Below are positions 13,350 to 49,310 of a stretch of 64,000 nt of DNA, piece by piece. Every line of letters starts with the position of its first letter. Positions within the stretch are counted from its first letter, which is position 1. The DNA lies in the NCBI GenBank assembly GCA_036426205.1, contig CM071574.1, positions 12,282,892 through 12,346,891 of the forward strand, read 5' to 3'. The stretch is from Ascaphus truei. Taxonomy: Eukaryota > Chordata > Amphibia > Anura > Ascaphidae. The notes under the pieces were generated by a model. The model searched no databases, was not told the DNA's origin, and saw nothing but the letters and a program-made list of their open reading frames with translations. The position numbers were made by a program, and so were the translations under genes.

Positions 13350-14417
13350 AAAATAGTAAAATCTGCTGCACACCATAAAAAGTCAAGAAATACAGTTAAC
13401 GGTGCTCCTGCAATCAGGGATAGCCTGTAAGTAATCCAAGTTACATGAAATAGAAAAGCATCACAGGGCACTGTGGATTTTATACTATTTATTAGCCAAA
13501 TATTGGTATGACATTTAGACCTACATAGGTTTTTATCAAGTGAGAAAGTGGCATGAAATAAACATCATATTGTGTCTCTTAAGTAGTCCACATAATCCCC
13601 ATAGTGCCCTTTGTTAATCATCCATTAATCGGCTCCATCCCTGCAGTTACCCATACATCAGATGGATCCAATTTGATTTTTCTGCCTTCCGTTTTTTGGC
13701 CTTCCTGATTGGTCCGTGTCTTGTCACGTGACTGCCATGCTCTCCTGACATCACGCTGCTCGGCATCCTCGCATTGTTTCCATAGGGTGTTAATCCGCCG
13801 TCATGGTCACAGCTCCCTTGATTCCTTCTGTTTACCTCCTTTACCATGCGATATACATCACGGCACCGAACGTTATCGCGTAATTTCTGTTTTTCCGTTT
13901 ACTGGTTGTACTGGTGACCGGTTATTATTCTTCATGCTCCTGATTGGTTGTGCTGTTGTACATGCACAACTAATCAAGTTGTGATATCAGACATATATCG
14001 TGTGGTAACGGAGGTGAACAGAAGGAACCAAGGGAGCTCTGACCATGACGATGGAAAAACACCCTATGGAAACAACGCGAGGACACTGAGCAGCGTGATA
14101 CGTCATAACGTCACGATAGCATGGCACGTCACGTGACAAGACACGGACCAATCAGGAAGGCCAAAAAACATAAGGCAGAGAAATCAAATTGGATCCAGCT
14201 GATGTATGAGTAACTGCAGGGATGGAGCCGATTAATGGATGATTAACAGAGGGCACTATGGGGATTATGTGGATTACTTAAGAGACACATTATATGATGT
14301 TTATTTCATGCCACTTTCTCACTTGATAAAGACCTATGTAGGTCGAAACGTTGTATCAATATTTGGCTAATAACATGTTTAAAATTTGCAGTGCCCTGTG
14401 ATGCCTTTCTATTTCAT
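13350..14417 (-). mobile_element. Large palindromic element with hammerhead-like motif, copy b
   Basis: About 1.07 kb, flanked by the 12-bp duplication ggtgatgggtct (13338-13349 and 14418-14429). Two inverted arms of roughly 450 bp (about 13435-13930 and 13980-14417) meet near 13960. A single-copy tail of about 85 bp sits at the left. The right arm carries TTGATAA, hairpin AGACCT/AGGTC and GAAAC at about 14324-14353; the left arm carries a more decayed inverted version near 13520. The arms also contain perfect-looking CACGTGAC segments. A transcript across it would fold into a hairpin of several hundred base pairs. Confidence 0.8.
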
Positions 14418-14429
14418 GGTGATGGGTCT

Positions 14430-15310: not shown

Positions 15311-16567
15311 TATAAGACAAATTTCCCTAGCCAATTCCAGTCTGGGTTTCGTCCCAAACACTCCACCGTAACTACCCTGCTAAAAGTTTGCAATGAAATC
15401 CAGTGCGGAATGGAACGGGGACAACTCACTGGTGCAGTATTCCTAGATTTTGCAAAGGCTTTTGACACAGTTGATCATGTTATCCTGCTTAACAAACTCC
15501 AGAGCTCTGGAATAGGGAAACATGCTTTAAACTGGTTTCAGTCCTACCTATCAGGAAGATCCCAACATGTGTCCATCTCAGGCTCTAACTCCAACCCCCT
15601 GGATATCACATGTGGTGTACCGCAAGGCTCTGTTCTGGGGCCCCTACTCTTCTCAGTGTTCATTAATGATCTTCCCACAGCTTGTAAGGAAGCCTCAATA
15701 CACATGTATGCAGATGACACAATCCTGTATGCACACAGCCATAGCCTCTCTGACCTTCAACACATACTTCAGTCTGACTTTTTGAGACTCGAAAACTGGA
15801 TTTCCCAAAACAAACTGTTTTTAAACACTGACAAGACTGTAACAATGGTATTTGGGACCAAGACTAAATTTGTAAAGCTTCCAGTGACTGAGCTCCTGAT
15901 TAGAACCAACGCTACCACCACCCTAACACCTGTCACTAGTTTTAAATACCTGGGCTTATGGTTTGACTCCCACTTAACATTCGGGATGCACATTGATACC
16001 CTGACATCCAAGACCTATGCCAAACTAGGGGTACTTTACAGGAACAAATCCTCCCTAAGTCTCCTGGTCAGAAAGCGTATTGCACAGCAGATGCTAATGC
16101 CAATTATTGACTATGGAGACATAGTATATGGCTCGGCTCCTCAAACCCACCTTAGCAAACTTGACACCCTCTACAATTCAATTTGTCGTTTTGTTCTCCA
16201 ATGCAACTACAACACACATCACTGCGAAATGCTCAAAGAACTAGATTGGTCATCACTAGAGTCTAGGCGCAAAGTTCACCTTTCCTGTCTCACCCTCAAA
16301 TACTTTCTGGGCAAGCTACCCAGCTACCTGAACAAGCTCCTCACCCCTACCACATGCAGTACCTATCACCTGAGATCAGACTCCAAAAGACTATTCATGG
16401 TCCCAAGACTCAACAAAGTATCCGGACGTTCCTCCATCTCCTTCCATGCACCCCAAAACTGGAACAACCTACCAGAGACTCTCATATCCACCACCAGCTT
16501 AAGTTCTTTCAAATCTAAGGCTGTCTCACACTTTAATCTGGTCTGTAACTGTTTCATACGCTCATAA
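15311..16567 (+). CDS. LINE reverse transcriptase, 5'-truncated but open
   Basis: The frame is open from 15311 to the stop at 16565-16567, about 418 codons. The first Met (15410) is not a natural start, because RT-type sequence (SQFQSGFRPKHSTVTTLL) already lies upstream in the same frame. Key motifs are LDFAKAFDTVDH, GVPQGSVLGPLLF and the catalytic YADDT. A C-terminal WNNLPETL...SFKSKAV block follows. This is a non-LTR reverse transcriptase of the L2/Rex1/CR1 (Jockey-like) type; the exact clade is uncertain. The endonuclease half is missing, so the copy cannot move itself. With no stop over the whole remaining RT it is probably a young insertion. Minus-strand relatives of its 3' end lie at 56.6-57.0 and 59.87-59.97 kb. 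Confidence 0.85.
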   Translation, partial: YKTNFPSQFQSGFRPKHSTVTTLLKVCNEIQCGMERGQLTGAVFLDFAKAFDTVDHVILLNKLQSSGIGKHALNWFQSYLSGRSQHVSISGSNSNPLDITCGVPQGSVLGPLLFSVFINDLPTACKEASIHMYADDTILYAHSHSLSDLQHILQSDFLRLENWISQNKLFLNTDKTVTMVFGTKTKFVKLPVTELLIRTNATTTLTPVTSFKYLGLWFDSHLTFGMHIDTLTSKTYAKLGVLYRNKSSLSLLVRKRIAQQMLMPIIDYGDIVYGSAPQTHLSKLDTLYNSICRFVLQCNYNTHHCEMLKELDWSSLESRRKVHLSCLTLKYFLGKLPSYLNKLLTPTTCSTYHLRSDSKRLFMVPRLNKVSGRSSISFHAPQNWNNLPETLISTTSLSSFKSKAVSHFNLVCNCFIRS

Positions 16568-18756: not shown

Positions 18757-18825
18757 ATATCTCGCCACAGGAGGAATCATTCACAACACTACGTGTCGGA
18801 CAACATAACTCCAAGAGATATTTCA
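18757..18825 (+). CDS. ARHGAP15: ARHGAP15 exon, linker before the PH domain
   Basis: A 69-bp exon, 23 codons, phase 0 at both ends. The acceptor is tgtttttcag and the donor is gtacgg. It encodes ISRHRRNHSQH, matching the human ARHGAP15 segment ahead of the PH domain as I recall it, then YVSDNITPRDIS, which is more divergent. ARHGAP15 is a cytosolic, membrane-recruited GTPase-activating protein for Rac-family GTPases, with an N-terminal PH domain and a C-terminal RhoGAP domain. This linker has no known catalytic role. The next exon (23347) also starts in phase 0. No earlier exon was found in the window. A solo LTR begins 113 bp past the donor. Confidence 0.9.
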
Positions 18826-22609: not shown

Positions 22610-22951
22610 CTGTGACAGACGTTAAATTAACTCTGGCTACATTGCAAAGCCTGGCTTTGCAATTTTCAAGGCTGGGTAGGAACAATTGCAAAACCAGTAC
22701 AACCAACCTCACACTAATGAGACCCAAAAGGTCGAAACAGCTGTCTGTGAGTGCTTTCACTTGCTTTGCATCTAATCCTATGCTGTGCTGAAAAGCTGTG
22801 TTAACAGCAAGCATTCGCTTACAACGGTTCCATGTAAAAATGGACTTCAGGCAAAAGGTGAAACGTTGTGTTCATTTGCATGTAATTTCCCAGAATCCTT
22901 TGCTGCAGTGGAAGCACTGTATGCTAGGTGACAATGGTGAAAGGCAAGGTT

Positions 22952-22956
<5 letters not shown>
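22610..22956 (+). mobile_element. Hammerhead-bearing repeat, copy 1
   Basis: The interval shares its sequence with 33.93-34.25 kb: a fold region around a hammerhead motif, then blocks such as gctgtgttaacagcaag, ttcatttgcatgtaatttcc and gcagtggaagcactgtatg. It ends in the CT-rich tract at 22957. Reverse-strand relatives are at 23.89, 43.85 and 44.93 kb. No coding sequence. It lies in the ARHGAP15 intron, in sense orientation. Confidence 0.75.
22709..22750 (+). ncRNA. Hammerhead ribozyme motif with a mutated core (G5 to A)
   Basis: In order: stem I strand TCACA (22709-22713), core CTAATGA (22714-22720), stem II GACC/GGTC around the loop CAAAA (22721-22733), GAAA (22734-22737), stem III ACA/TGT around GC, cleavage base C (22745), and stem I strand TGTGA (22746-22750), which pairs perfectly with TCACA. 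The only departure from the canonical core CUGANGA is A for the essential G at the third core position. It is probably inactive. The fold is otherwise complete. Confidence 0.75.
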
Positions 22957-23009
<53 letters not shown>

Positions 23010-23346: not shown

Positions 23347-23411
23347 GTAAATGAAAATAAAGAAGGGGTTTTAAATCAAACCAAAATTACAGACAGAGGA
23401 AAGAAGTTAAG
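23347..23411 (+). CDS. ARHGAP15: ARHGAP15 exon, start of the PH domain
   Basis: A 65-bp exon with acceptor ccttctgtag and donor gtattg. It reads in phase 0 from the previous exon and leaves two bases (AG) of an Arg codon, completed by the G that opens the exon at 32981. It encodes KEGVLNQTKITDRGKKLR, corresponding to the first strand of the PH domain in human ARHGAP15 (as I recall it, EGYLQKAKI...GKKLR). Val replaces the usual Tyr in EGYL. The PH domain binds phosphoinositides and recruits the protein to membranes; the basic GKKLRK stretch near the end belongs to that binding loop. Confidence 0.9.
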
Positions 23412-23889
23412 GTATTGTCCATTTTCTATTTTCACATTGAGTGTATTACAGTTGCATGTGATATAAAGTTGTTAAAATCATTAATCCATATATGGGATGT
23501 TGTGTCTGGGTCGTGAGACAGCAGCTGTGAAAGACAAGACATTACTGGACAAGTATAAGTGACATTGTTAGTATTCTGAAGCTGTTTCCAAAGGACAAGC
23601 TGTGTTACTTGTTTTTTCATGGTTATTGCAGTGTAGTGCCACCTGGTGCTCAATGTGTAGAATACAAGTTTTATAGTCAAGTCGATCACAGGCAAATTCT
23701 CCCCAACCTTTATTATTCCTAATAGTATTACTGGTATCCTGAATCTTTTTGTGTGGGACTCAATGAAAAAATGGCTACTGTATAATTTACAAACAATGTT
23801 TTCAAGACGCCTTTCGATATTGGAAATACGTAATAATATAAGGCCGGCATCTTTTTAGTATGTTTTAAGCAAATAAAAATACAACTTGT

Positions 23890-24110
23890 GAGCACATATT
23901 TCTTAGCATCCAGTGCTTCCATTGCAATCAGGGATTCTGGGTAATGACATGCAAATGAGCACACAGTGTCATCTTTTTCTTTTTGTCCATTTTAACATTG
24001 ACCCCTATAAGTTTATGCCTGCCGTATTACACACCTTTTCAGCACAGCCTGGGTTAAAGAAATGCACAGCCAGTAAACGAGGAACCAGAGCAAGACAAGA
24101 GCGAGGTGGG
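23890..24110 (-). mobile_element. Hammerhead-family repeat, truncated copy
   Basis: The reverse complement matches the body of the family (gcatttgcatgtcattacccagaatccc-like blocks, in pieces). It stops before the ribozyme region. Only the part downstream of the hammerhead is kept. Confidence 0.6.
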
Positions 24111-24119
24111 TTAGAGGAG

Positions 24120-24221
24120 AGATATATATATATATAGATATGATATATATAATATAGATATATATATATATTATAGATATATATATATATATATATTATA
24201 TTATATATATATATATATATG
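24120..24221. repeat. (TA)n microsatellite
   Basis: About 100 bp of TA-rich repeat. The next palindromic element begins directly at its right edge, and another TA run lies at the far side of that element. Confidence 0.9.
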
Positions 24222-32640: not shown

Positions 32641-32980
32641 GAGAAAACCTAGGTAACCTCATTGGCATTCAAGGGCTTTATAACATATATATGCTTTGAT
32701 TGAAGCACTTAGGGCTAAGCGATAAGGCACCCTACATCACTTTACTGTAGGTAATTGGACAGTAAGTTGCCTTATGGTTTAGAAACGATTAGTAAATACG
32801 GCCTACAGTGTTACTTGGAATGGCCACAACATATTTCTGATATTAATACTCACGGTTTATTACATCTTGAGCAGATAGTTTTTTCTGACGGTTTAAAGTA
32901 CCTGTTTTTGCTGGAGCATTTAAAGTTACTTAGGAGTTTTCCACTAGTTACTGTAACGATACTTTTGCATTTGTTTCTAG

Positions 32981-33068
32981 GAAAAATTGGACTACATCTT
33001 ACATTGTGCTTTCTGGACGAAAACTGGAGATCTATAAAGAATCCAAGGAACAAGCTGTATCAAATTTG
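32981..33068 (+). CDS. ARHGAP15: ARHGAP15 exon, PH domain core
   Basis: An 88-bp exon with acceptor ttgtttctag and donor gtgggt. Its first G completes the Arg codon begun at 23410-23411, and it ends in phase 0. It encodes KNWTTSYIVLSGRKLEIY, then KESKEQAVSNL. This is the second and third strands of the PH domain, with the Asn-Trp-x-x-Ser-(Trp/Tyr) pattern shared by ARHGAP9, 12, 15 and 27. The KESK(E/Q)QA(V/L)SN run is specific to ARHGAP15 within that group, as far as I recall. No frameshift or stop is present. Confidence 0.93.
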
Positions 33069-33928
33069 GTGGGTATATACTGTATGATTTCTGTTCATAC
33101 AATATATAAAATTGCTGATTTATGTTTAAAAACACACGAAGATGTAATTATGCTGGAGTACATTGGGAGCAATTATTTAGTAAGCCTTAAATAAGACTTT
33201 AATCAGATAAAAGGGATGTCTTCAAGTTACTGTCTCCATGTTAGGGATGCATTTAAGGCATAATTATAAAAGGAAGGCAATGCTAATGTGAAAACATTTA
33301 AAGTCTGCAAAGTAGTGTTTTATCCTGTGTGTAATGTGACACCCACTATATAAAGCCAACATCTTGGAATATTTCGTTTGATTCCATCTAATGTAGCTAA
33401 TGTAATTTCTGAGGCAAGCAGTTACTGCAAATTTTACTTTGTACTTTTCTTTATTGTGCCTGAGGAGAGGCCACTGATCTTAGTCTTCAGAGATGTGACA
33501 GATTAAGTTGCACAGACAATTCTGGCATGTATACTTATATAACCCAAGATACAATGCTGCTAAAGTTGGCAAACCTCTGCATGGCATTAAAAGGGAGAAC
33601 AAGTCAATGTGAGTAGGATAGTATGGATAGCACAGGGACACATTTGACAGAGTCCCATTGTGAAGGATACCCAAGGCTGGATCAAACCTGCCATACCTTA
33701 TTGAAATGATGGGTGCCTTGGAAGGTGCTCTTTGGGCAGGAGTCACTTATAATAAGCTATTTTACATTTGGCAGGTGACAAATAGCTTTTTAGTCTGGGC
33801 TGCCAAGAGTATCTGTCATAACATATTTCTCTTTATAGAAGAAATAAAATAATAAAGATGAAGCATAAAATAAAATGATACTTTATCATTGTCGCTGAGC
33901 TGTGTGTGTGTGTCTATATATATATACA
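33069..33928 (+). other. ARHGAP15: ARHGAP15 intron, 5' part
   Basis: Single-copy intron sequence with no recognised repeat until the short GT run near 33900. Nothing else seen. Confidence 0.5.
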
Positions 33929-33929
33929 G

Positions 33930-34255
33930 CCTTGAAATTTGCAAAGCCAGTACAACGAACCTCGCACTGATGAGACCCATTAAGGTTGAAACATGTCTGT
34001 GAATGGTTTCTCTGGCTTTGCATCTGATTCCCATGCTGTGCTTAAAAGCTGTGTTAACAGCAAGTATTAGCTTATAAGGGTTCCATGAAAAGATGGACTT
34101 CAGGCAAAACGTGAAATGGTGTGCTCATTTGCATGTCATTTCCCAGAATCCCTTGCTGCAGTGGAAGCACTGTATGATAGGTGATGGTGAAAGACAGGGT
34201 TGCAGACCTGTCTAAGAAATGTGAATGCGCTCACAAGTGATCTTTTTATTTGCTC
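33930..34255 (+). mobile_element. Hammerhead-bearing repeat, copy 2 (best preserved)
   Basis: Same family as 22.61-22.96 kb. The fold region is followed by the shared blocks gctgtgttaacagcaag, gctcatttgcatgtcatttc and gcagtggaagcactgtatg. Simple sequence lies at both ends: TA/GT on the left and CA/CAA on the right. It is non-coding and sits in the ARHGAP15 intron between the exons at 32981 and 36274, in sense orientation. Confidence 0.8.
33941..34021 (+). ncRNA. Type I hammerhead ribozyme, canonical core
   Basis: All core elements are present in order. Stem I strand AACC-TCGCA is 33958-33966 and core CTGATGA is 33967-33973. Stem II GACC/GGTT with loop CATTAA is 33974-33987. GAAA is 33988-33991. 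A two-pair stem III (AC/GT around AT) is followed by cleavage base C at 33997. The return strand TGTGA-(AT bulge)-GGTT is 33998-34008. An outer 10-bp perfect pairing (GCAAAGCCAG 33941-33950 with CTGGCTTTGC 34012-34021) extends stem I. The predicted cut is after C33997. The closing pair of stem II is a G-U wobble, the only weak point. It is in the sense strand of an ARHGAP15 intron. Activity is inferred from structure, not shown. Confidence 0.85.
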
Positions 34256-34261
34256 TATATA

Positions 34262-34295
34262 CACACACCAACAACAACAACAACAACAACAACAT
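34262..34295 (+). repeat. (CAA)n microsatellite
   Basis: About nine CAA repeats directly after the hammerhead-bearing repeat. Confidence 0.95.
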
Positions 34296-35141
34296 GGGGA
34301 AATATGTTGGCAAAGCTTGCAATTTATTTAAATGAACATCAGAAATATCAAATTGATTTGACCATTGTCAACGGTAGCGTGTAGGCGCGTTTCTGAACAA
34401 ATGTGATATAAAAATTATGATAGGCCAACATAAACCTGTGCAATGTTATTTCACAACTTACAGCATCTACACATATACCGCAAGGGAAAAATAGTTACTT
34501 GCATTTTGTACTGAAATTAAAAATGGCTAGCACACTTTAGTGAACAAGTTTTTTTTAAAGTAGTGCTAGCCAATAGTATTCAATCAAATTTACATAAATA
34601 TAGTGTGTTCTTACTATATTCTAATAACTTAACGCCAATACAATTTACTGGTGTGTAAAATAATATAAAGTATTTTAATGTAACATTTCAGCTTTTCAAC
34701 GCACAACACTTTTAATCTTAACAAAACTTTTAGTTTTAACTAGACATGATAAGATACTATTATAAACTAGACATGATAAGTTATTATTATAAAGCAGAAG
34801 TGCAGAAAGATATTGCTAAAAAGAAATGTCATAAAATGTTGACATAATTTTATTCCTGGGTAGACATTTGTTTAAGTTGATGAAGCTAATGTAATGTTTC
34901 TTAATAGGATTTTTTTCTGCATACTGTATTTTTATCTAGTTAGCAATGATAAATATCAAACCCTTTATTAAAAAATAATGTATACTGTTATCTATTTTTT
35001 ATAAAAGCAAAGAGCTCAACCCTTATCAAAAATAATAATGTAGCCAGTATTTGTTTTGAAATATCTATGTGATACTATTATACATTATAGTTAGATACTA
35101 ATTTACTTATGACATATTTCCAGTGAATGCTTTGTATGGAT

Positions 35142-35328
35142 CAGGGGAGGCCAACTCCAGTCCTCAAGAGCAACCAACAGGTCAGTTTTTGAGGATATGC
35201 CTGCTTCAGCACAGGTGGCTCAATCAGTGGCTCTGTCTTCGAAGACTGAGCCAATTGTGCTGAAGTAAAGACATCCTGAAAACCAGACCTGTTGGTAGCT
35301 CTTGAGGACTAAAGTTGGCTAACCCTTG
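35142..35328. mobile_element. hAT-type MITE, family 1
   Basis: 187 bp, starting caggggaggccaactccag and ending in a matching inverted terminus. The flanks gtatggat and ttatagat agree at six of eight positions, consistent with an aged 8-bp duplication. Confidence 0.8.
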
Positions 35329-36273
35329 TTATAGATTAAGTACACAATAATTTATTTAATTTTTAGAATCAGTGTACTCTGATAAATAAATACATAAAAT
35401 AATATACTGATATTAATGGCATATTCTGTATAATACAGAACACTTTAATGCATAATTCCAAGGCTAGACAAGATAAGGAATATAGTATACACAGTAAGTG
35501 AACATGCAAAGTAAATAGCCTATATGATGGGGAATGACATCGCTGTGTGTTACAACTTCAGAGATTTACCGTCCCCAAGCTGTTGATTCCACTGGGTCAA
35601 AAAGAAAAGTCAATTCTGCAAAGGGCCATCACAGCTTGGGTCAATACTCCTGAGTCACAGGGTCACCTGCAAATAAAAGTCCCATTTCAAAAACTACATT
35701 GACCCAGTTTCTGTAACTTATGAGTCATGAAGTTTGCTTTCTCAAGATTTTTGAGATTAGCGATTTAAACCATGTTAGTTGGATGCAGAAAATTCCCACA
35801 TCCACTGGAACCACACTGATTGAATAACTTTAACTGCCAAAAGTGTCTGGAATTTCTGTTTCAAATGACAAACGTGCTAAAAATAATAATCAACTTGCAA
35901 AATGGCAGGTAAGTTTGAAAGAAAATACAAATGTGGATTTTTATATTAAAGGCTGGTACAGTACATGTAACTCTTGAGCTGCAATATTTACATTAAACTG
36001 CAAAACTAATGCACATAATAAATAAATGTTTATTTAGTTAATATCCCATGAAGCTGAGTAGATTATCGGTATAGTATCATCACCATTATAATCAATCAGT
36101 GTATTATAAACTAAGAATTAACTGGCGAAATAACCTGTAGTGGGTATTGACATCAATTTATTTTGGTAGAAAACATTATTACAATTCTTTGCTACTGTAA
36201 TAACCTTCATTAATGAGTTAATTATTCCTCTGTAATTATTTCTAATAATCTATGATGTGCTAATTGTTTACAG

Positions 36274-36363
36274 AAATCAGGGAATAAACCAGAGTGGATT
36301 GATCTATGTGGTGCTCACGTTGAATGGACCAAAGAGAAATCCAGTAGAAAAAACGTCTTCCAG
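36274..36363 (+). CDS. ARHGAP15: ARHGAP15 exon, PH domain
   Basis: A 90-bp exon of 30 codons, phase 0 at both ends, with acceptor attgtttacag and donor gtaaaa. It encodes KSGNKPEWIDLCGAHVEW and then TKEKSSRKNVFQ. This is nearly the human ARHGAP15 sequence I recall for this place (VDLCGAH(I)EWAKEKSSRKNVFQ). It contributes middle strands of the PH domain; the closing helix with its invariant Trp should be in the next exon, which was not found in the window. With the three earlier exons the frame is open for 104 codons. Confidence 0.95.
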
Positions 36364-37727
36364 GTAAAACACTTATATTTTATTTTAGAGGTTGGTTTTA
36401 CAATAGTTGTGTTTCCAAGTGCATCACATGGAATGTGAGTTACAGTAGTTGAGTGTATTTGGATCCAATCCTACTGGGGGTCTATTTAAATACCTTGTGA
36501 ACCAGCAGAGCTCCAAGAGTGAAAATAGTTGTTTAGCTTCAGGAAACACCCATTCCAATAATATTAAAAGAAAAAAATATTCTGGGAGAAGTTTTCCTGT
36601 TTATTTTGTTGAATGTCAGTATATGTATCTTAGTTCTCATCAAACCTCTCCTATTGCACATTTTCTGTCTCTGTTGCTAACATATCTGCTGATCTGTCTG
36701 TTGTGTACCTCAGGGCTCTGTTCTGTGACCTCTCCTTTCCTCTATAGACTATCACTTTGTGACCTCACCCCCTCTTTTTGCCTTAGGCAGCATCTCTATG
36801 CTGGCAATACACAGATATACAGTATCTATCCACCCCAACCCTCATTCCTGCAATCCAGTCCCAAGTCTCGAATTGCCTTGTGGCTATATCCTCGTGAATG
36901 GTTCTTCGCTGCCTTAAGCTTAATATGTCTAAAACTGAGTAATATCCCCTTTTTCCATCACAGTAAATGGAAATACCATCTATCCTGTTGCGAAAGCACA
37001 TACAGTAGCCTAGAAGTGACATTTCACTCTTCCTTTTCCTTCTCCATGTACATTCATGGATGGCTACTAAAATGTGTTGCTTCTTCCTCCGTAATATTGC
37101 CAAGATCCGCCCTCTCCTCTGTCAATCTCTACTGCTACAACTCTTAATGCATGCCCTTATCTGCTCCTGTCTGGATTATTGTAACATACAGGCCACTATG
37201 CCTCACAAATTTCTCCATTACAATCTATCCAAAAGGGTGCTACTAGAATAATTTCCCTATCTTCCAAAACAGTCTCTGCTCATCTCTTCCTTATGTCCCT
37301 TTCCTGACTTCCCATCAAATTTTGGATCACCTACAAAGTTCTCCTCCTTATATTTAAGGCTCCCCACTCATCTGCTCCTCCATACTGTACATATCAGCTG
37401 TGCTCTGATTGTTATGCCCCTACTCGTACCATACGCTCTATTCATAACTTTCACAGCTGCTGCTCTTTCTCACCTTAAACCTTTCCTCCTCCCTGCCTCT
37501 TACCTGTGGAGCTCCCTCACTGTCAGTATACGCCAAGCAAAATCTCTCCCCACCTTTAGAACAAATCTTAAAACTCACCTCCTAAATGAAGCATTTCAAT
37601 AGCCCAGACTTATGGCTGTTGTCCCACTCCTAAAGTCGCTCCTACCAACCATTGTGTCCATTGTGCCATCAACTCCACTTCTTCCCTCACCTCCTGTCTT
37701 TGTAAGTCTCTAAACTTACCATTTACA

Positions 37728-43800: not shown

Positions 43801-43849
43801 GTATTTTGTATATATATATATATATATATATATATGCAAATATAACTGT

Positions 43850-44095
43850 ATGCTCATCTGCATGTCTTAGGCAGGTCTGCAACCCCGCCTTTCCCCATTA
43901 TCACCCAGCATACAGCACTTCCACTGCAGCAAGGGATTCTGGGAAATGACATGCAAATGAGCACACAGTGTCACTTTTTGCCTCAATAACCATTTTTAAC
44001 ATGGTTCCCTATAGGCTTAAGCTTGCTGCATGGTCACAACTTTGAGCACAGCCAGGGTTAAGATGCATACCCAGAAAACCACCCACAACCATGTT
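43850..44095 (-). mobile_element. Hammerhead-family repeat, truncated before the ribozyme
   Basis: Reverse complement of the family body. It shares gattctgggaaatgacatgc and gcttaagcttgctgcatgg with the copy at 44.93 kb. It ends at aaccacccacaacc, just where the cleavage-site side of the hammerhead would begin. A TA run flanks it on the left. Confidence 0.7.
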
Positions 44096-44741
44096 TTGCT
44101 ACCATGCATCTCTATTAAAGCATTTTTAATTTTCACTACTCAGCCTCCAGCCCTACTTTTTTCAGCAGTGCTCTACCTTCTCTCCACGCATATTTAAGCA
44201 TGTGTTTCAATTATCATTCTTGGTACTGAATTACTGAGTGCTGTCGATTTTGTGTTACCCCTCTCATCTCACCTGTAGCCTCTACTGTACAGTTTCCACC
44301 TGGGGAAGAGCCTGTGAAAATGAATTTGCATGGGACACGCCAAACAATGCAGATCAATCCTGGAACAGGAGCACTTTGTATTCTCTGTTAATGGGCTGTC
44401 CTCTGGCCCAGGCTAAGCTTTCGTTTTAGTTAATGTGCTTTTAGTGCACTTATCCGCTCCTCCGTTTTCATGCAGAAGTGCCAGCCAGGAATGGGATTAA
44501 GATGTTTAGCGGAGGATTTCTGTGATGTTTATGAGACATAAAAAGGGAGAGATCCATGAAATAACCAGAAATGCCACAGTTAAGCAACCGAAAAGAATGA
44601 TAAATCCCGACCTGGCGCATGACCTCTTCCATGTTAAAGGTGAAATCACATTTCTAAGTAATTTATTTCAAGATTGCCTTTTTGACATTCAATAGCCAGG
44701 GTCCCAGCAATCTGTGAGAGCTTCTAATTCCCTACACCAGG

Positions 44742-44930
44742 GGTTCCCAAACTTTTTCGGTACAAGGCTGCCCAAGGCGATCAGGATTTTTCTGCGGCGC
44801 CCAAAGTAAAAACAAAGTTATATATATACATACCTAAAAGTTGCAGTGCGCAGTTGGTGTCTCTCTCAGACACTCTCACTCTCTCAGACACACTCTCTCT
44901 CACACTCTCAGACACACACTCTCCCAGGTC
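44742..44930. repeat. hAT-like left terminus and CT/CA-rich simple sequence
   Basis: caggggttcccaaacttttt at 44742 is a typical hAT-family terminus. No matching right end was found. From about 44865 the sequence becomes an irregular CTCTCACA repeat. Confidence 0.5.
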
Positions 44931-45085
44931 ACTTTTTGCCTCAAAAACCATTTTTAACATGGTTCCCTATAGGCTTAAGCTTGCTGCATGGTCACAGCTT
45001 TGAGCACAGCCAGGGTTAAGGTGCATACACAGAAAACCACCCACAGACAGCTGTTTCGACCTTGATGGGTCTCATCATAATTGAA
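44931..45085 (-). mobile_element. Hammerhead-family repeat with a 5'-cut ribozyme
   Basis: On the minus strand, TGATGA, stem II GACC/GGTC, GAAA, stem III ACA/TGT, cleavage base C and the return strand TGTGG are present (45045-45075). The first core base reads A, and everything upstream of it, including the 5' strand of stem I, is unrelated. The copy therefore lost the 5' arm of the ribozyme and cannot fold fully. Confidence 0.7.
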
Positions 45086-45384
45086 TCATACTGTGTTGCA
45101 CTATTTTTGTAATCGCTCCTCTTTCATATGAATATTGAGAGCTGTGATCCTGCTCTCTTCAAACTCATTTACACCCATGTAAGTGAATGGCCATTAAGAA
45201 ATTAGTCTGTGCTGCTCGTTGCTGTTTAGAAATCTTTTGCTTTTTTGCTTACCCTGAACCGAGTGGACACATTGCTCTTTGCAAACCATGCAAAATTGAC
45301 CTTTGGTTTCGAGCAGAAAATTTACCAAGGATTCTTTAGCGAGGGATTTTACCTATTGATGAATATACCTTCCAAATGCCAAGG

Positions 45385-48604: not shown

Positions 48605-49310
48605 CCCTCACTTACTTCTAAGCCATGAGCCGTCGTTATTAGTCGTTAGTGCTAGAAACGTGATAGGCCCAATATCTAGGTGGACCAATACTTCTAGGAT
48701 GTTTGGTGATACAAAAATATTATTGATTCTAGAATACGAATTGTGTGGGGGCGAATAGAAGGAATAATCTATCTGCCCTGGCCAGGCATCCAATAGACCA
48801 AATTCTTTGATTAGCAATCTAAATGTCTTTGCTACACTGTATGTCATTGCAGAGTGTTCATGCCCTGGATTTGTGGACTTGTCCACATCCGTGTCCGGGA
48901 TCATATTAAAATCACCTCCTACAATATACAGTATAACTGTTTTCGGTTATTCCCCATTGACTCCAATGTTTCCCTTAGAAAATCAATTTGTCCCTCGTTG
49001 GGCGCATATATATACACTAGTGTAATTTGTAGACCTGAGAGAAGACCATGGACCACAAGCAACCTTCCTCCCTGGTTTCGCTTGACCGCCAGTATCTGGA
49101 ACGGGATATCTTGTTTCATCAAAATCGCAACCCCTCTTTTCTTACTGGTGAAAGACAGATAAAATGCTATAAGAAATGTCCTGCTAAAAATGTTTGGGGG
49201 TTCCTGTGTATCGAAGTTCGTCTCTTGCAGAAAGACTATATCTGCTTTCAGTTTTCTGAATTCTTTTAGGGCCAATCTATGTTTATCACTAATTTCAATA
49301 GGACTTGGCT
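48605..49310 (-). pseudogene. L1-type LINE endonuclease (ORF2 N-terminal part)
   Basis: Two minus-strand frames give the apurinic endonuclease of L1 ORF2. The first holds KADIVFLQETNFDTQ, KKRGVAILMKQDIPFQIL, GGRLLVVHGLLSG and YIYAPNEGQIDFL. The second holds MIPDTDVDKSTNP, FGLLDAW and YSFYSPPHNSYSRINNIFV. A frameshift at about 48.91 kb separates them. The element stops at about 48.6 kb before the SDH-type end of the domain and has no reverse transcriptase, so it cannot transpose. Confidence 0.8.

Follow-up and report, generated by a model that had tools for sequence, protein, structure and literature searches.

During the analysis of a 64-kb stretch of DNA (hereafter designated the window), we found that the type I hammerhead motif located in an intron of an ARHGAP15-like gene belongs to a repeat of ~330 bp with four more copies in the same 64 kb, which had been missed by the initial annotation. 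The copy carrying this motif (c34) very probably represents a non-autonomous retroelement of ~330 bp, of the metazoan retrozyme or newt satellite 2 kind, present as a solo copy that landed by chance in the intron in sense orientation and is decaying neutrally. This reading is supported by the five copies, their unit size of ~325-330 bp, the weak palindromic helix III, the Rfam match of a sister copy (c22), the promoter motifs, the absence of excess hammerhead conservation between c22 and c34, the damage in all five copies and their mixed orientation. The copies are as follows.

22686-22963, + strand: c22, sister copy lying earlier in the gene, with a hammerhead at 22708-22751 (Rfam 35.9 bits, above gathering).
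23867-24123, - strand: c24, hammerhead part unrecognisable (nhmmer E 6.3e-65; BLAST 24073/24077-23904).
33926-34255, + strand: c34, retrozyme-like repeat copy of ~325-330 bp, ends approximate (BLAST and nhmmer to the four other copies).
43834-44106, - strand: c44, hammerhead part unrecognisable (nhmmer E 3.8e-82; BLAST 44096-43861).
44926-45109, - strand: c45, lacking the 3' part of the repeat, its hammerhead with a C3-to-A change (nhmmer E 1.1e-47; BLAST 45077-44929; Rfam 22.1 bits).

BLAST searches of the window, using 800 bp around the c34 site and 800 bp around the c22 site as queries, detected the four copies besides c34, two of the five being gene-sense and three antisense, and c22 was 86.8% identical to c34 over 280 bp. 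An nhmmer profile made from the five copies returned the same five places, together with a marginal piece at 43844-43973 (E 0.006) that overlaps c44 on the opposite strand. The repeat unit extends from ~33926 to 34255, both edges being approximate, with the hammerhead close to its 5' end. No head-to-tail array was found by BLAST among the five copies in the 64-kb window, all of them being solo or truncated; c44 and c45 have the same orientation and lie ~840 bp apart. The sequence TCTATATA flanks c34 on both sides (33913-33920 and 34254-34261) and may represent a target-site duplication, a weak case in that the pair sits in simple sequence, and no target-site duplication was found at c22. Simple sequence, (TA)n, (CT)n, (CA/CAA)n or (GT/GA)n, adjoins or lies within ~40 bp of at least one edge of each of the five copies. 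Directly upstream of c22, at 22651-22674, there is an inverted copy of the 5' end of the repeat (33927-33950; 24 nt, 96%), an arrangement suggestive of a fold-back of the 5' end at insertion. An exact scan of viral contigs for a conserved 23-base piece of the repeat gave 0 matches.

The repeat is of a kind already described in amphibians. Its size of ~325-330 bp falls within that of metazoan non-LTR retrozymes (~170-400-bp unit with a type I hammerhead); tandem dimers or multimers, a feature of metazoan retrozymes, were not found within the 64-kb window. Newt satellite 2 and the axolotl non-LTR retrozymes (Rtz_331, HHR_Amex1) resemble the present repeat in their ~330-bp unit, type I hammerhead and multiple copies, and the part of PMC7229834 concerned with them gives element sizes of 330 and 350 bp in axolotl. 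The same part describes the newt and axolotl hammerheads as having a helix III composed of a single base pair and a palindromic tetraloop and as reaching 6% cleavage in 1 h when monomeric and cleaving much better in dimeric form; by description, the palindromic loops CAUG in c34 and AGCU in c22 are likened to this weak helix III. The present copies differ from the newt and axolotl retrozymes in being only solo or truncated in the 64-kb window and in carrying core-region changes in every copy. A hammerhead in an interspersed repeat, likened here by description, has also been reported for Xenopus in the relevant section of Perreault et al. 2011 (PMC3088659). Minimal hammerheads of Penelope-like elements share the type I form and the weak helix III, whereas c34 has an extended stem I and sits in a ~330-bp unit. 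A literature search yielded no paper pairing a hammerhead ribozyme with a caecilian.

The unit contains two promoter-like motifs, both downstream of the hammerhead.

34127-34134, + strand: octamer ATTTGCAT, a putative site for POU2F1 within a distal element of snRNA type (shared by all 4 copies reaching the region).
34139-34157, + strand: SPH/ZNF143-like site around CCCAGAATCC (34142-34151), recognised by its spacing to the octamer (4 of 4 copies).

All four copies that reach this region (c22, c34, c44 and c24) carry ATTTGCAT, 7 bases and then CCCAGAATCC, which thus starts 15 bases past the octamer start in each of them. The octamer alone is not rare, occurring 13 times in the window when both strands are counted; of the 9 further occurrences listed, none has CCCAGAATCC or CCCAGAAT behind it. 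A separate SPH pattern was listed for three of the four motif copies, c22 being different by one base after CC. A proximal element (PSE) is only weakly resembled, by 34180-34193. An octamer combined with a Z-motif (ZNF143) constitutes the usual distal element (DSE) of snRNA genes, as described in a portion of PMC3499247. Newt satellite 2, in which an extended hammerhead has been reported, is stated in a passage of PMC2220036, citing Coats et al. 1994, to be driven by an snRNA-type promoter, features to which the extended stem I and the candidate octamer plus SPH-like motifs may correspond here.

Presumably, in a live family, the internal snRNA-type promoter of one monomer would drive transcription across its neighbour in a tandem array, the hammerheads would cut as dimers via a palindromic ACAUGU/ACAGCUGU helix III, and the ~330-nt RNA so freed would be circularised and reverse transcribed. 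The ribozyme precedes these motifs in the unit, so a tandem array would transcribe it but a solo copy would not, and the hammerhead of c34 would be transcribed only through read-through of the host intron.

The hammerhead of c34 comprises two nested features.

33961-34004, + strand: type I hammerhead motif with a predicted cut after C33997 (Rfam Hammerhead_1 and core positions).
33941-34021, + strand: extended hammerhead, with stem I prolonged by two further helices, one of 5 bp and an outer one of 10 bp (base-pair probabilities).

The core bases named in the initial annotation (CUGAUGA, GAAA, 16.1 and C17) are all present between 33967 and 33997, namely CTGATGA at 33967-33973, GAAA at 33988-33991, U16.1 at 33996 and C17 at 33997, and the motif at 33961-34004 contains the CUGANGA, GAAA and U-H17 core of RF00163. 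Stem I is formed by 33962-33966/33998-34002 and prolonged by 33957-33961/34005-34009, followed by a perfect outer helix of 10 bp (33941-33950/34012-34021). Stem II consists of 33974-33977/33984-33987 and is closed by a G-U pair, rightly pointed out earlier as a weak point. For stem III, only ACAUGU is available, forming either one A-U pair with a 4-nt loop, which is then the palindromic CAUG, or two pairs with a 2-nt loop. A descriptor scan for an intact core on both strands of the window matched only the 33961-34004 site. In a whole-window Rfam scan at the gathering level of Hammerhead_1 (RF00163; 34 bits), the single match was that of c22. We base the hammerhead homology of c34 more on c22, with its identity to c34 and its Rfam pass, than on the bare motif; as judged from these sequences, the c34 motif is a true descendant of a type I hammerhead. 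The score of c22 rescues the homology of the c34 motif, not its activity.

Every copy (5 of 5) shows a core change, a closing-pair change or loss of the hammerhead. The best-scoring copy in Rfam, c22, has the core CTAATGA, i.e., G5 replaced by A, and c45, in which A replaces C3, gave a partial match below the gathering score. Changes of G5 or C3 abolish hammerhead cleavage in mutagenesis, on which basis the G5-to-A change in c22 should kill cleavage. In c34, the G-U closing pair arises from a U at 11.1, the corresponding base in c22 and c45 being the C of a CpG, and loss of this CpG would be a simple cause of the U; the c34 helix III is two bases shorter than those of c22 and c45. No hammerhead match was obtained in the Rfam searches for c24 (at E up to 10) or c44.

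Folding predictions bear on whether c34 retains activity. The minimum-energy fold of 33941-34021 contains the outer helix, stem I and stem II, and the core AUG is paired with the CAU of the would-be stem III. Pair probabilities were 0.98-1.0 for the outer helix, 0.75-0.87 for the middle one, 0.50-0.67 for stem I and 0.89-0.97 for stem II, and were near-identical in a 401-nt context. Thus, of the three paired stems and the outer 10-bp extension claimed initially, the extension and stems I and II are borne out, whereas stem III does not appear in the predicted monomer fold. Imposing stem III in its single-pair version, the only one covered by this energy, costs 6.4 kcal/mol (-19.0 vs -25.4; MFE -27.0), and the resulting hammerhead fold lies 8 kcal/mol above the minimum-energy fold. 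The covariance-model search named as a check in the initial annotation gave 18.7 bits for c34 (33961-34003), below the gathering score, an outcome that the initial annotation had itself set out as refuting its claim. The unpredicted stem III led us to reject the designation of a complete monomeric hammerhead. The palindromic ACAUGU could pair between two copies; however, cofolding of two 53-nt pieces (-24.2 vs -22.0 kcal/mol for two monomers) joined the strands elsewhere, leaving ACAU unpaired and predicting no ACAUGU duplex, so that the dimer step depends on the literature. Slow cleavage at most is expected of c34.

That c34 is catalytically active and biologically neutral, its slow cleavage of the intron being tolerated by the gene, is a possibility of some weight, though clearly the less probable one. 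It fits with the retroelement relic, differing solely in residual activity, and is favoured by the intact core and by axolotl repeats with a similar helix III, which still cleave as monomers to the extent given above in part of PMC7229834; the G-U closing pair and the predicted pairing of the core AUG with the stem III CAU speak against it. The intact core letters also count against the reading as a neutrally decaying retroelement relic, which need not show them, as do the lack of a head-to-tail array in the window and of an ACAUGU duplex in the two-strand cofold.

The edge of c44 was compared with the predicted cleavage site. A stretch of 118 bp is 97% identical between c44 and c45, and this identity begins at 44087 of c44, the base equivalent to that just 3' of the hammerhead cut. 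Such an edge may have arisen by retroposition of a cleaved RNA or by local duplication. Of the last 20 bases upstream of it, c44 agrees with c45 at 11, with c22 at 10 and with c34 at 8, as compared with 18 in the c22-c45 control. Its upstream local alignment scores were matched by fractions of 0.883 (c45), 0.36 (c34) and 0.028 (c22) of the shuffles, so leftover hammerhead sequence may still be there and the edge at the cleavage site is weak evidence; the corresponding fractions for c24 were 0.983 (c45), 0.083 (c34) and 0.071 (c22). It appears unlikely that the family is still spreading through reverse transcription of self-cleaved linear RNA; in that case, c44 would be a footprint left in the genome by ribozyme cleavage, and an intron-derived RNA capable of dimerising in trans could be released from the ARHGAP15 copy.

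The host gene was delineated by tblastn against the window with an ARHGAP15 protein sequence, which gave four matches, in order and on the + strand.

18757-18813, + strand: ARHGAP15-like match (E 7e-4).
23359-23412, + strand: ARHGAP15-like match (E 0.07).
32979-33068, + strand: ARHGAP15-like exon upstream of c34 (70% over 30 aa, E 4e-9; splice sites).
36274-36366, + strand: ARHGAP15-like exon match downstream of c34, with donor GT at 36364 (77% over 31 aa, E 6e-12; splice sites).

These ordered matches place c22 and c34 in the sense orientation in two introns, the c34 intron being 33069-36273 with fitting splice sites at 33068/33069 and 36273/36274. The assignment of the motif to the sense strand of an ARHGAP15-like intron is thereby upheld. 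c24 lies antisense between the second and third matches, and c44 and c45, also antisense, lie past the last match, perhaps in a later ARHGAP15 intron. Introns tolerate inserts, and the presence of several copies of a mobile repeat in the window indicates that the position of c34 inside the gene is probably an accident of insertion rather than a gene switch.

It is very hard to sustain that c34 is an exapted ribozyme cutting the ARHGAP15 pre-mRNA and tuning its splicing, as proposed for RECK and DTNB. The motif does lie on the sense strand ~0.9 kb past an exon, with an intact core and with pair probabilities of 0.75-1.0 for the two helices, outer and middle, that extend stem I, also in the longer context. 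However, the repeat recurs four times elsewhere in the window, including three antisense copies, no stem III is predicted, stem II has a G-U pair at its base and the Rfam score is under gathering. Furthermore, in the single comparison available, c22 with c34, the hammerhead is identical at 38 of 43 positions (3 gap columns) and the remainder of the unit at 184 of 208 (4 gap columns), showing no excess conservation of the hammerhead and no trace of selection on the c34 ribozyme. A selected intronic switch was rejected on the lack of excess conservation, the five copies and their mixed orientation, leaving the earlier suggestion of a role in pre-mRNA processing unsupported. The intronic hammerheads of amniotes (RECK, C10orf118 and DTNB) are likewise of type I, but are described in parts of PMC3088659 and PMC6155905 as conserved sites, unlike c34, which shows no sign of being conserved here and is one copy of a repeat present five times. 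The amniote analogy drawn initially with RECK and DTNB runs the opposite way, since the same parts of these papers propose that the amniote sites are rare domesticated descendants of such retroelements; PMC3088659 suggests that the Xenopus repeat hammerheads are related to the source from which the mammalian RECK and C10orf118 sites arose. As a copy of the retrozyme-like repeat, c34 represents the sort of raw material whose domestication has been proposed for amniote introns and illustrates how an intronic hammerhead that seems gene-specific when read alone proves to be a repeat copy; no current view is altered by it.

A chance match unrelated to hammerheads, for which the low score of c34 and the at least one descriptor-fitting site in 5 of 200 dinucleotide-preserving shuffles of the window (making the bare motif only mildly unlikely by chance) could be cited, has almost no likelihood and was rejected as contradicted by the homologous c22, which exceeds the Rfam gathering score, with a further partial match in c45.

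The window also contains a large inverted repeat at 13444-14418 (425-column match, 88%), a 418-aa open frame at 15311-16567 (+ strand) resembling a LINE reverse transcriptase by eye, and broken frames at 48608-49308 (- strand) resembling, also by eye, a LINE endonuclease.
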